Shown here in pieces: positions 37,724 to 53,015 of a stretch of DNA of 64,000 bases (position 1 is its first letter; the number at the start of each line of letters is the position of its first letter). The notes under the pieces are model-generated. The model made no database searches. It worked only from the letters and a program-made list of their open reading frames with translations, and was not told the DNA's origin. Source of the DNA: Thermincola carboxydiphila (lineage in GTDB: Bacteria; Bacillota; Thermincolia; Thermincolales; UBA2595); assembly GCA_016841325.1 (NCBI GenBank), contig JAENZJ010000002.1, forward strand, positions 124,001-188,000. Reading direction: 5' to 3'. Position numbers and translations under genes: made by a program.

Positions 37724-38647
37724 ATGACTGATTTTGACGTAGTAATTATAGGTGGTGGGCCCGCGGGATTATCGGCAGGCCTGTATGCAGCCAGGGCGAA
37801 GCTGAGGACAGTTCTCCTGGAGCGGGGAATGCCCGGGGGGCAGGCTTCCACAACCGACATGATTGAAAATTATCCGGGATTTCCTGACGGGATCCCCGGC
37901 CCTGACCTGATGATGAACATGGACATACAGGCCAGACGTTTCGGGGTTGAACCGAGGTTTACCGATGTGCTTTCCGTTGCTGAGATTCCGGAGGGGGGCT
38001 TCCTGGTAAAGACCTCTGACGGTGAGATTACCACTAAAACAGTAATTATTGCAGCCGGGGCCCTGTCCAGGCCATTGGGTATCCCCGGAGAAGAAGAATT
38101 CAGGGGACGCGGGGTATCATATTGTGCTACCTGTGACGGTGCCTTTTTCCAGGGGAAAAGAGTGGCAGTGGTCGGCGGCGGTGACTCCTCAGTACAGGAA
38201 GCCATATACCTTACCAAATTTGCTGAGAAGGTATATATCATACACCGCAGGGATGAATTCAGGGCAACCAAGGTTTTGCAGGAAAAAGCCCGTGCCAATT
38301 CCCAAATAGAATTCATTATGGATTCTGTTGTCACGAATGTGGTGGGAAATGACCAGGTTGAAGCAATAAAGGTGAAAAATCTTAAGTCCGGTGAGGAAAA
38401 GGCTGTTGCTGTGGACGGAGTCTTTGTCTATATCGGAAAAGACCCCTCAACAGAGCTGTTCAGGGAGTTTGTTGATACTGATGAACGCGGCTATATCATT
38501 ACCGATGCCAGGATGCAGACATCCCGGCCGGGAGTCTTTGCGGCAGGTGATGTCCGCCAGACACCACTGCGTCAGGTGGTCACTGCTGTTGCAGACGGGG
38601 CTGTTGCGGCCGTATCGGCTGAAGAGTATATCGAGTACGTAAAGTGA
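37724..38647 (+). CDS. trxB: Thioredoxin reductase
   Basis: A 307-residue FAD/NADPH enzyme that reduces thioredoxin. The FAD Rossmann motif GGGPAGLSAG is at 10-19, the redox-active CATC at 134-137, the NADPH motif VGGGDSSVQEA around 151-161, and the C-terminal GVFAAGDVR FAD motif. It lies upstream of the selenoprotein operon, separated by a palindromic repeat and a promoter, so the two are probably expressed separately although both are thiol-redox genes. Confidence 0.95.
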   Translation: MTDFDVVIIGGGPAGLSAGLYAARAKLRTVLLERGMPGGQASTTDMIENYPGFPDGIPGPDLMMNMDIQARRFGVEPRFTDVLSVAEIPEGGFLVKTSDGEITTKTVIIAAGALSRPLGIPGEEEFRGRGVSYCATCDGAFFQGKRVAVVGGGDSSVQEAIYLTKFAEKVYIIHRRDEFRATKVLQEKARANSQIEFIMDSVVTNVVGNDQVEAIKVKNLKSGEEKAVAVDGVFVYIGKDPSTELFREFVDTDERGYIITDARMQTSRPGVFAAGDVRQTPLRQVVTAVADGAVAAVSAEEYIEYVK

Positions 38648-38903: not shown

Positions 38904-39107
38904 ATGGGAATGATAGTTATGGATAAAAGAGCAGTAATAATCCCGGAGAAATGCAAAATATGCAGGGTCTGCAGGGCAGGTAAGGTTTGTCCGGCTAAAG
39001 CCATCGAGCAGGAAGAGCCGGGTGAACCATACTATATTAATGCCTTTTGCCAGGGATGTGGCAAGTGTGCCGGGCATTGTCCCAACAGGGCTGTGGTTAT
39101 TATATAA
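38904..39107 (+). CDS. Small dicluster ferredoxin-like protein
   Basis: A 67-residue protein with two [4Fe-4S] motifs. The second, CQGCGKCAGHCP, is standard; the first, CKICRVCRAGKVCP, has four residues instead of three before the last Cys. Several ATGs are possible (38904, 38910, 38919) and no ribosome site decides between them. It is the first clear gene behind the CsoR/CstR-like operator and is likely the electron carrier of this small operon. Confidence 0.75.
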   Translation: MGMIVMDKRAVIIPEKCKICRVCRAGKVCPAKAIEQEEPGEPYYINAFCQGCGKCAGHCPNRAVVII

Positions 39108-39177: not shown

Positions 39178-39369
39178 ATGGATAATGACAAAAAGTTAGC
39201 CATACTGGAAAAAGAACTTAGGGATCTGCAACAAAGGTGGCCTGCACACTCAGTCCAGCCACAAATGATTGAGGAAATGGAACGAATTGAAGATGAGATT
39301 GAACGCCTTAGGAAACTCCGCCCTCATACTGATGCCGGTATACCTCTGGAGCCAGGGGCAGGGAGGTGA
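39178..39369 (+). CDS. Small coiled protein (63 aa)
   Basis: A 63-residue helical protein, rich in Glu, Lys, Leu and Arg, with heptad-like spacing (LAILEKELRDLQQRW; MEEMERIEDEIERLRKL-like). The ATG follows GGGGAGGGC. Its stop codon TGA lies inside the ribosome site of the next gene, so it is co-translated with the selenoprotein. No family recognised. Confidence 0.6.
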   Translation: MDNDKKLAILEKELRDLQQRWPAHSVQPQMIEEMERIEDEIERLRKLRPHTDAGIPLEPGAGR

Positions 39370-39371
39370 CT

Positions 39372-39713
39372 ATGATGAGTCTGAAAGTTAAAATCCAGGT
39401 TTTTGGCTCCAGGCTGCTTGACAGTTGTTCCGGAGGCGGCTGAGGACCATCACGGTCTCAGGAAGAGACCACTGTTCTCTACAGGGAGATTTTAAGTTCC
39501 AAATATGGCAAACAGGTTTCTATTCAGTATATTGATATTCAGGATGAAGATAAGATGGCCAGTTATCCTATGGTCAGGGCAGTGCTTCAGGAAAAGCCGG
39601 TTTCTTCTCTGCCCCTTGTTGCCATTGACGGTGTTCCGGTCTGGATGGGCAGTCTTTCCTATAATTACCTGGTGAAGGAACTAAGTAAAAAGGGGATTAT
39701 GCCTGTGGCCTGA
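39372..39713 (+). CDS. Selenoprotein with YuzD/DUF1462-like thioredoxin fold (Sec at 24)
   Basis: The frame starts at ATG 39372 behind GGGAGGTGAC and has an in-frame TGA at 39441-39443, giving a 113-residue protein if read as selenocysteine. The motif is SCSGGG-Sec-GPSRS: Cys19 and Sec24. After it come EETTVLYREILSSKYG, SIQYIDIQDED and LPLVAIDGVPVWMG, with the spacing and character of YuzD-type (DUF1462) small thioredoxin-fold proteins, whose Cys pair lies at the same place. That resemblance is from memory. Both sides of the TGA are well coded and a SECIS-like hairpin lies 10 bases after it. Likely a selenium-based thiol or persulfide redox protein; partner may be thioredoxin reductase. Confidence 0.8.
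39454..39470 (+). promoter_or_regulatory. SECIS-like hairpin after the TGA of the small selenoprotein
   Basis: GGTCTC, loop AGGAA, GAGACC: a perfect 6-bp stem whose loop begins 17 bases after the TGA with G as second loop base. This fits the bacterial SECIS geometry. Confidence 0.75.
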
Positions 39714-39809: not shown

Positions 39810-40016
39810 ATGCCAGCTTATGATTTCAGGTGTAAGGCTTGTGACAGTCAGTTTACCGTTAGGGTATCGATAAGTGAACGAGACAAGGTGAAGTGCCCGG
39901 AATGCGGTACTTCCAATGTAAAACAGGTCCTGACACCATTTTCTGTTACCGTCAAAGGCTCCCCGGCGAAACCTTCCTGTGACTTCGGATGTGGCTCGGG
40001 ATCAACCTTTGGCTGA
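39810..40016 (+). CDS. FmdB-family zinc-ribbon protein
   Basis: A 68-residue protein with the FmdB-type N-terminus PAYDFRCKACDSQF and a second knuckle KCPECGTSN, giving a Cys4 zinc ribbon. The C-terminus is Gly/Cys rich. The family is found near regulators and metal proteins; function is unproven. Located between the selenoprotein and the two-component system with three hairpins after it. Confidence 0.85.
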   Translation: MPAYDFRCKACDSQFTVRVSISERDKVKCPECGTSNVKQVLTPFSVTVKGSPAKPSCDFGCGSGSTFG

Positions 40017-40027
40017 GGCTAAAAATT

Positions 40028-50558: not shown

Positions 50559-50598
50559 ATTTAAGTAATACAATATTACTTTATGGGGAGCGATGCAA

Positions 50599-52587
50599 AT
50601 GAAGAGAATAGGGGTGTTTCTTTGCTGGTGTGGCTCCAACATCGGGGGAGTGGTTGATGTTCCCAAAGTGGCGGAATATGTCAGGACACTGCCCGGTGTA
50701 GCCTTCGTTCAGGAGAACAAGTATACTTGCTCTGAACCCGGACAGGCAGCCATGATCCAGGCAATCAAAGAACACAAAATTGAAGCAGTGGTAGTTGCTT
50801 CCTGCTCACCGCGGATGCACCTGCCTACCTTCCAGAAGGCCGCTGAAACTGCAGGCCTGAACCCTTATCTGGTTGAAATGGCAAACCTCAGGGAGCACTG
50901 CTCCTGGGTCCATGCCGCTGAACCTGAGAGGGCAACCCAGAAGGCCATGGAACTGGTCCGTAAGGCTGTGGCCAAGGTAGCCAAACTGGAGCCGCTCTAT
51001 GAGAGCTATATTCCGGTAACCAAGCGGGCCCTTGTTGTCGGCGGCGGGATTGCCGGTATCCAGGCAGCCCTGGATATTGCCGATGCCGGCCACCAGGTAG
51101 TTATTGTGGAGAAGGAAGCTACAATCGGCGGGAGGATGGCTCAGCTTGACAAGACCTTCCCGACCCTTGACTGCGGCGCCTGAATTCTCACGCCAAAGAT
51201 GGTTGCTGCGGCGCAGCATCCGAATATTACGCTTTACACCTACTCTGAGGTTGAATCAGTCGGAGGTTATATTGGCAACTTTGATGTTAACATCAAAAAG
51301 AGGGCCAAGTATGTTGATTACTCCAAGTGTACCGGTTGCGGCATTTGTGAATCCAAGTGCCCCACCAAGAAGATAACCAGCGAATTTGACGAAGGCATGG
51401 GCCAGCGGACTGCCATTTACAAGCCTTTTGCCCAGTCAGTTCCCAACAAGCCGGTTATTGACAACAAGTCCTGTAAGAAACTGATTGACGGAAAATGCGG
51501 GGTTTGTGCCAAGGTTTGCCCCACCGGGGCAATCAACTATGAGGACCAGGACGAACTGGTAACCGAAAAGTTCGGGGCCATAGTTATGGCCACCGGTTTT
51601 GACCTGATTAAGTGGGGAGAATACTATCCCGAATATGGCGGGGGAACTATTCCCGATGTTATTGACGGCCTGCAGTTTGAGCGCCTGGTCAATGCCGGGG
51701 GTCCCACCGGAGGGAAAATCAAGCGTCCTTCAGATGGTGAAACTCCCCAGACCGTTGTGTTCATCAAGTGTGTAGGTTCAAGGGATACCCTTAAGGCCAA
51801 GTCATATTGCTCCAGGGCCTGCTGTATGTATACTGCCAAGCATGCCCACCAGGTACGCGAGAAGATCAAGGGTTCCGATGTGTACATCTTCTATATGGAT
51901 GTTCGTACTCCCGGTAAGCTCTATGACGAATTCTACATGCGGACCAGGGAGCAGGACGGAGCCAAGTATATCCGCGGCCAGGTATCCAAGATATATCAGG
52001 ATGGCAATAAAGTTATTGTCCGCGGTGAAGATACCCTTGTGGGCAAGAGTGTTGAGGTTGAGGCCGATATGGTAGTTGTGGAGACTGCCATGGTACCACG
52101 TCCCGATGCCGTTCAGGTGGCTCAGACCGTTGGTTTCTCATATGACAAGGATGGATGGTATACTGAAGCTCACCCGAAACTCCGCCCGGTGGAAACAAAT
52201 ACCGGGGGTGTGTTCCTTGCCGGGTGCTGCCAGGGACCCAAAGACGTTCCTGACACTGTCTCCCAGGCAAGTGCGGCTGCTGTCAAGGTTGTGGCCATGT
52301 TCTCCAAAGATCAGATGGCTACCAACCCGCAGATTGCATCAGTTAATGAGGCAACCTGTGTCGGGTGTCTGCTCTGTAAGCCAATATGTCCGTATAAGGC
52401 TATTGAGGCCAAGGAAATCGAAGAAAGAGTCCATGGTGAAACCGTTAAACGTACGGTGGCCAGCGTAAACTCCGGTCTCTGCCAGGGATGCGGGGCCTGC
52501 ACCGCTGAGTGCCGTTCCGGTTCCATTAACCTTAAAGGCTTCACCAACCTACAATTACTTGCGGAGGTGGATGCTGCATGTCTGTAA
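50599..52587 (+). CDS. hdrA: Heterodisulfide reductase subunit A, selenocysteine-containing
   Basis: The reading frame runs 662 residues if the TGA at 51181-51183 is read as selenocysteine (residue 195); without it there would be two broken halves. The TGA stands in FPTLDCGA-Sec-ILTPK, replacing the second Cys of the conserved C-x2-C of HdrA. The FAD fold [10 protein letters not shown] is at 148-157. Ferredoxin motifs follow: [33 protein letters not shown] and [11 protein letters not shown]. HdrA is the flavin bifurcation centre that splits electrons between HdrB and ferredoxin. Start chosen at the second ATG, nine bases after GGAG. A SECIS-like hairpin follows the TGA. Confidence 0.92.
51201..51221 (+). 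promoter_or_regulatory. SECIS-like hairpin of hdrA
   Basis: TGCTGC, loop GGC, GCAGCA, extended by two G-C pairs beyond a T-T mismatch. The loop starts 26 bases after the TGA with G first, inside the usual bacterial range. Confidence 0.75.
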
Positions 52588-53015
52588 ACGAAAAAGACCT
52601 GTCAAACTGGCAGCCAAGAATACTCGGTTTTGCATGCAACTGGTGCAGCTATGCAGGTGCGGACGTATGCGGTGTCAGCCGTTTTCAGCATCCCTCAACC
52701 ATGAGGGTTGTCCGCGTTCCCTGTTCCGGGCGTGTTAACCCGCATTTTGTACTGAGGGCATTTCAGAGGGGGATTGACGGTGTCCTTGTGGGTGGCTGAC
52801 ACCCGGGTGACTGCCACTATGTTAGTGGTAATTATTATACCAGGAGAAGGTTTCTGGTCCTGAAACGGCTCCTGGAATATGTCGGATATGAACCTGGCCG
52901 TTTTAATGCACGCTGGATCTCTGGTTCGGAAGGCCAAAAATGGGCTGATACCACCAAGGAAATGACTGAACAGATCAAAGCCCTTGGTCCGAACAAGAGA
53001 TTTGCAAAAGAATAA
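52578..53015 (+). CDS. mvhD: FloxD / MvhD-like iron-sulfur protein, selenocysteine-containing
   Basis: A 145-residue protein with an in-frame TGA at 52797-52799, read as Sec74 in GVLVGG-Sec-HPGDCHY. The same site is Cys in most MvhD/FloxD proteins. Other conserved Cys are 20, 23, 31, 49 and 79, which bind the [2Fe-2S] cluster and the region that meets HdrA. The ATG overlaps the hdrA stop by ten bases behind GGAGGTGG. It links the Flox module to HdrA. A hairpin follows the TGA. Confidence 0.92.
52814..52828 (+). promoter_or_regulatory. SECIS-like hairpin of the mvhD-like gene
   Basis: CCACTA, loop TGT, TAGTGG, with two further pairs outside. The loop begins 20 bases after the TGA and has G as its second base. 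Confidence 0.75.

Follow-up and report, generated by a model that had tools for sequence, protein, structure and literature searches.

The window analysed here is a stretch of 64,000 nucleotides of the Thermincola carboxydiphila genome (assembly GCA_016841325.1, contig JAENZJ010000002.1, positions 124,001 to 188,000), and coordinates below refer to it unless a contig is named. On its forward strand, a frame at 39372..39713 starts with an ATG at 39372 (or 39375) and gives coherent protein through to 39710 across a single in-frame TGA at 39441..39443 (+ strand, codon 24). Translated with selenocysteine (Sec, U) at this codon, the frame reads MMSLKVKIQVFGSRLLDSCSGGG-U-GPSRSQEETTVLYREILSSKYGKQVSIQYIDIQDEDKMASYPMVRAVLQEKPVSSLPLVAIDGVPVWMGSLSYNYLVKELSKKGIMPVA, i.e. 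a thioredoxin-like protein of 113 residues (the coordinates include the stop) related to ArsD and YuzD, with the motif C19-S-G-G-G-U24-G-P and a likely cis-proline at Pro81. The original prediction, made from the letters of the window, had proposed that one frame crosses the TGA with coherent protein on either side and that gene calling misses the gene. Both points hold: homologues are conserved on both sides of the TGA, and the list of open reading frames of the window has no ordinary frame of at least 80 residues at this locus, so that standard gene calling would miss or truncate the gene. A second TGA (39711..39713, + strand) was considered as another Sec codon and rejected in favor of a real stop, because relatives have a TAA or TAG stop at this point and the sequence beyond it forms no stable hairpin.

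Four conserved neighbors, all on the + strand, flank the gene. Upstream lie a thioredoxin reductase (TrxB, 37724..38647; TIGR01292, 392.9 bits against a cut-off of 343.45), a small [4Fe-4S] ferredoxin-like protein (38904..39107) and a 63-residue predicted helical protein with an RWPAHSV motif (39178..39369); downstream and close by lies an FmdB-family zinc ribbon protein (39810..40017; TIGR02605, 64.9 bits against a cut-off of 31.3). The gene for the helical protein ends 2 nt before the start codon of the selenoprotein, and we infer that the two are likely co-translated.

The genome contains the machinery for Sec insertion, with selA (625.5 bits), selB (369.3 bits), tRNA-Sec (75.3 bits) and two selD genes (399.8 and 361.9 bits), both of the Sec type with an in-frame TGA in each. 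The window itself holds two further frames of known selenoprotein kinds, each with an in-frame TGA. A heterodisulfide reductase subunit of the HdrA2 type (50593-52584, 791.6 bits) has a TGA at 51181 in the motif DCGAU; this is a known kind of Sec protein, and ordinary gene calling would split the frame. Directly 3' of it, a hydrogenase delta subunit-like frame (VhuD/MvhD, 52578-53012) has a TGA at 52797 in the motif GGUHPGDCHY and scores 123.3 bits, below the cut-off of 215.

A hairpin of the bSECIS type, with a 6-bp stem and an AGGAA loop (GGTCTC-AGGAA-GAGACC, 39454..39470, + strand), begins exactly 10 bases 3' of the TGA. Published limits for bSECIS elements are a loop of 3-9 nt, a stem of 4-16 bp, a G in the first two loop bases, a distance of 16-37 nt from the UGA and an energy of -7.5 or lower (PMC13188914). 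With a 5-nt loop that starts with AG (G being the second base), its 6-bp stem, 16 nt from TGA to loop and a folding energy of -8.2 kcal/mol for the isolated hairpin, the element lies within every one of these limits, and the bSECIS geometry that had been recognized in the original prediction is thus borne out. Among 16 Sec genes of the family, TGAGG followed by a stem-loop centered on GG is a common feature; the protein motif S-Q-E-E or S-Q-A-E accounts for part of this sequence conservation. The pairing itself is kept by compensatory changes: 90.2% of pair cells are standard, 13 cells are changed on both sides, and the outer stem pairs co-vary (GC, AU and GU at one pair; AU, GC, CG, GU and UA at the next). 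The covariation score in these 16 genes is 0.363 compared to 0.140 +/- 0.033 in shuffled alignments, none of 500 shuffles being as high, and sliding the partner strand by one to three columns reduces pairing to 32-44%. Moreover, a hairpin of -4 kcal/mol or lower is present in 28/30 Sec forms as opposed to 7/28 Cys forms, a count in which a few Sec forms are tallied as Cys.

Relatives are numerous. The genome encodes a second copy (G000:C28:57176-57499; L002, L111) that is 41% identical and has a TGA at the same place; a first search found a homologue in 27 of 101 genomes, and a profile built from 14 members detected the family in 69 out of 398 genomes from the phylum. The aligned and examined set comprises 62 members, 38 with a TGA (from 35 genomes) and 24 with a Cys in the motif. 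These relatives continue past the TGA, which lies within the motif, and they have Cys or Sec at the site of Sec24. The protein is conserved on either side of the TGA, and in the 14 close members F11, G12, R14, U24, G25, E32, D55, L80, P81, G93 and E103 are invariant. In more distant branches, Sec is again found in this Cys-rich loop, although not always in the same alignment column. Cys relatives read CFSGGCGP, or CSGC compared to CHGU and CYGU, and on supported tree branches Sec and Cys were exchanged at least 8 times. The original description of the active site as a C-x4-Sec center applies to the copy in the window; relatives have C-x3-U or C-x2-U. 3' of the TGA, dN/dS is ~0.08-0.16 when the window gene or its paralogue is compared to the closest relatives, and dN is 0.124 against a dS of 1.26-1.58 when the window gene is compared to species of its own genus; by these substitution rates, the codons after the TGA are under purifying selection, and an untranslated stretch would not give such values. 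One locus (L020/L060, G097:C37:2865-3155) lacks an intact N-terminal part, has an in-frame TAG and adjoins a CcdA-like gene; it is either a decayed copy or a sequencing error. Searching genome contigs with a pattern in which the Sec codon is replaced by one for Cys found no relative, a DNA pattern combining the TGA and the hairpin matched 28 places, none of which encodes this protein, and plasmids and viral contigs gave no match to the family.

Combining these data, we conclude that the TGA at codon 24 is very likely read as Sec and that the readthrough frame of the original prediction is confirmed, as far as comparative sequence analysis can confirm it. The competing reading, in which the TGA acts as an ordinary stop codon, followed by a chance open frame, a pseudogene or a short protein with its own start, would draw on TGA being the normal opal stop codon and on the result of a survey of the window: among 50 frames in which a TGA is preceded by 10 or more residues and followed by 70 or more open codons, this site is only the second by hairpin stability (two of the 50 sites, itself included, are at least this stable), so that the pattern of readthrough and hairpin alone is suggestive and not decisive. 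It is the homologues, and not hairpin stability alone, that decide. A TGA kept in 35 genomes, purifying selection beyond it, a covarying hairpin, substitution by Cys and co-occurrence with SelB all argue against an ordinary stop, and we regard that reading as highly improbable. With respect to SelB, all 35 genomes with Sec forms have it over the cut-off compared to 73 of 101 relatives overall; among the homologue carriers that were examined, just three lack SelB (G391, G235 and G271, the last being incomplete), and their family members are all Cys forms.

The fold of the protein points in two directions. An AlphaFold2 model based on the 14-member alignment has a confident thioredoxin-like fold (pLDDT 88.9, pTM 0.83), which places Cys19 and Sec24 in the segment joining the first strand to the long first helix, and Pro81 where the cis-proline is usually found; the model is weakest in the loop of residues 21-23 before Sec24 (pLDDT under 50). 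The nearest solved folds are those of ArsD (3MWH, Z 9.4; also 3KGK and 3KTB), which has the same size, and of YuzD from S. aureus, a DUF1462 protein (1XG8, Z 9.3, rmsd 3.5 over 102 residues), followed by thioredoxins (Z ~7.5). The family profile matches YuzD at an E-value of 6.7e-6 with Sec opposite the second Cys of YuzD, whereas a single-sequence query of PDB sequences gave nothing useful, and a profile is needed to see the match. Thus, the likeness to DUF1462/YuzD noted originally stands, while the equally strong similarity to ArsD had been missed, as had the second copy in the genome and the vicinity of trxB. Against Pfam DUF1462 (PF07315) the protein scores 18.6-18.7 bits, below the gathering cut-off of 25, which two relatives pass (L032 with 31.9 and L035 with 29 bits); against Pfam ArsD (PF06953) it scores 25.4 bits (cut-off 27), against NCBIfam ArsD (NF033727) 24.3 bits (cut-off 90, E 3.5e-5) and against Thioredoxin_3 just 14.4 bits. 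Both PF06953 and PF07315 have previously been placed in the thioredoxin-like clan (PMC3091736).

The motifs give a similar picture. In ArsD, Cys12, Cys13 and Cys18 have roles in handing As(III) to ArsA (PMC12607644). Ser18-Cys19 and Sec24 of the window protein provide two of these three positions: Sec24 aligns with Cys18, the Cys13-Cys18 spacing is kept, some ArsD proteins have a C-x4-C-GP motif similar to C-x4-U-GP, and an equivalent of the vicinal Cys12 is absent. ArsD proteins encoded in the neighborhoods of family members are weakly detected by the family profile. For YuzD, the motif of which we take to be C-x2-C, the difference lies in the spacing, which is C-x4-U in the window protein and C-x2-U in the relatives L027 and L032. 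Given these scores below the cut-offs, the fold matches and the partial set of Cys ligands, the window protein is kin to both ArsD and YuzD and a formal member of neither.

The branches of the family differ in their genetic settings. The window branch, with the motif C-x4-U-GP (C-x3-U in G005), is found 0.3-1.4 kb 3' of a thioredoxin reductase gene in six genomes (G000, G001, G002, G005, G009 and G025) from four genera, G000-G002 belonging to one genus, and the small ferredoxin, the 63-residue helical protein and the FmdB zinc ribbon protein accompany this linkage in part of these genomes; G046, G122, G059 and G131 have C-x4-U members without an adjacent trxB. The paralogue encoded in the same genome lies directly 3' of queD-queC, and this order recurs in G003, G005 and G007. 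As read from the sequences, a third branch (CYSGGUGP, in G033 and G113) is encoded beside OsmC, a CsoR-like regulator and ArsR, and in G113 also adjoins a thioredoxin gene. The more distant branches with U-x-C or C-x2-U motifs, together with their Cys counterparts, are found in arsenic operons with ACR3, ArsR, ArsD and ArsA, one such operon having the order ArsR-ArsD-ArsA-ArsA together with a family member; ACR3 lies near distant members in several genomes, with five neighbors confirmed over the cut-off. An ACR3-like neighbor in G059 was left out of this count, given that the corresponding protein in G013, a close relative, scores below the cut-off. At one or two such genes in each genome, these linkages exceed chance by a wide margin, although related genomes are not independent. 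The Cys members L134 (G177), L145 (G106) and L166 (G382) are clustered with ACR3 and, judged from sequence reading, with genes for a GcvH-type lipoyl protein and for lipoate ligase-, OsmC- and dihydrolipoamide dehydrogenase-like proteins. A TrxB identity for neighbors in these three genomes was dropped, the sequence reading as dihydrolipoamide dehydrogenase; these clusters could possibly represent a lipoyl-dithiol arsenic system.

Combining the fold and the Cys/Sec pair with the linkage to trxB, we favor a model, somewhat more probable than all others together, in which the window gene encodes a small Cys-Sec thiol/selenol oxidoreductase that is recycled by TrxB. SelB and tRNA-Sec very likely decode the UGA at codon 24 aided by the hairpin just downstream; Cys19 and Sec24 would form a reversible selenenylsulfide; Sec24 would attack the substrate, possibly a metalloid-thiol compound or a peroxide, and Cys19 would resolve the intermediate; and the reduced protein would be regenerated by TrxB from the upstream gene or by a thioredoxin that TrxB serves. 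This model is suggested by the thioredoxin-like fold with its cis-Pro position, by the TrxB linkage in six genomes, and by OsmC and, in one genome, thioredoxin beside another Sec branch. TrxB is the probable electron donor. No other free-standing thioredoxin reductase in the genome scores over the cut-off, so that the proximity of the two genes may not reflect a dedicated partnership. A further match to thioredoxin reductase (G000:C36:326512-327753) comes right after a thioredoxin-like match, apparently in one 429-residue frame. The C-x4-U spacing counts against a redox role, because proven redox centers of the thioredoxin type have the shorter C-x2-U or U-x2-C and because it is identical to that of the arsenic-binding Cys13-x4-Cys18 of ArsD; for the biochemical role taken by itself we consider the balance to tip only slightly toward a Cys-Sec oxidoreductase.

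Alternatively, the protein may be a selenium version of an ArsD-like binder, with Cys19 and Sec24 as ligands of a soft ion such as As(III) or Sb(III) that is handed on to a partner without redox chemistry. The shared spacing (the ArsD of G045 reads CCPTGLCGP), the rank of ArsD as top fold match, tied with YuzD, the Pfam ArsD score close to its cut-off and the ACR3-containing operons of the distant branches are as such a model would predict; the vicinal Cys pair is absent, however, no ars gene lies beside the window copy, arsA linkage is lacking in the genome, ACR3 is encoded on another contig and the window branch goes with TrxB instead. We consider this model unlikely, though a serious competitor, for the window copy; even with a redox function for this copy, the branches linked to ars genes may bind metalloids in the manner of ArsD. 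A role as a sulfur or selenium carrier, with Sec24 ferrying persulfide or selenide for e.g. tRNA modification or selenophosphate synthesis, would fit the position of the paralogue 3' of queD-queC in four genomes and, from sequence reading, the TusA-like and YeeE-like neighbors in G059. No sulfur-transfer enzyme was recognized near the window copy, however, and queuosine synthesis is not known to need a persulfide donor; we find this role improbable. In total, an oxidoreductase recycled by TrxB remains the best explanation for the window copy.

The proposal that no selenoprotein of this type has been described is in line with what we found. Among the 119 prokaryotic selenoprotein families catalogued in 2026, there is no DUF1462, YuzD, ArsD-type or C-x4-U entry (PMC13188914). 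Among the NCBIfam selenoprotein models, none matches the window protein and none matches the family members compared with them at an E-value of 0.1 or better, the HUIPC model reaching just 19 bits on one distant branch against a cut-off of 105. The families of Haft and Tolstoy (2025) are reportedly included in the 2026 catalogue. In the open-licence literature, a pairing of DUF1462 with selenoproteins was not found, an unseen report being possible, and the sole co-mention of ArsD with selenoprotein and selenocysteine concerns a thioredoxin reductase inhibitor. SaoT (NF040730), HUIPC (NF047660), Brachyspira Sec.1/Sec.2 (PF13192) and CC/Se (NF041239) are likewise small proteins with a thioredoxin fold or a Cys/Sec motif, one Sec and a bSECIS element; these known thioredoxin-like selenoproteins have the motifs UxxC, CxU, UxC and CxxU, unlike the C-x4-U of the window protein, and their NCBIfam models are unmatched. 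We rate the proteins described here as a new, widespread selenoprotein family inside a known fold superfamily.

A broader and more tentative reading, which we regard as a minority possibility, is that these proteins form a new selenoprotein superfamily linking YuzD and ArsD, with Sec at or near the metalloid-ligand position, a motif that shifts from C-x2-U via C-x4-U to U-x-C, and three settings, i.e. TrxB-linked redox, arsenic operons and the vicinity of queuosine genes. If true, it would include the first case of an ArsD-type chaperone or reductase that handles metalloids by means of selenium. A selenoprotein family, with 38 Sec and 24 Cys members aligned here, is broken at UGA by gene calling, and for YuzD/DUF1462, the structure of which is solved, a role in redox or metalloid chemistry can be put to the test. 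A Sec form (GGUSC; L160 in G308) and a Cys form (GGCSC; L164 in G286) occur in two species of the same genus and provide a natural Sec/Cys comparison. As the equivalent of the Sec position is an arsenic ligand in ArsD, such natural Sec and Cys forms can be used to test what selenium adds.
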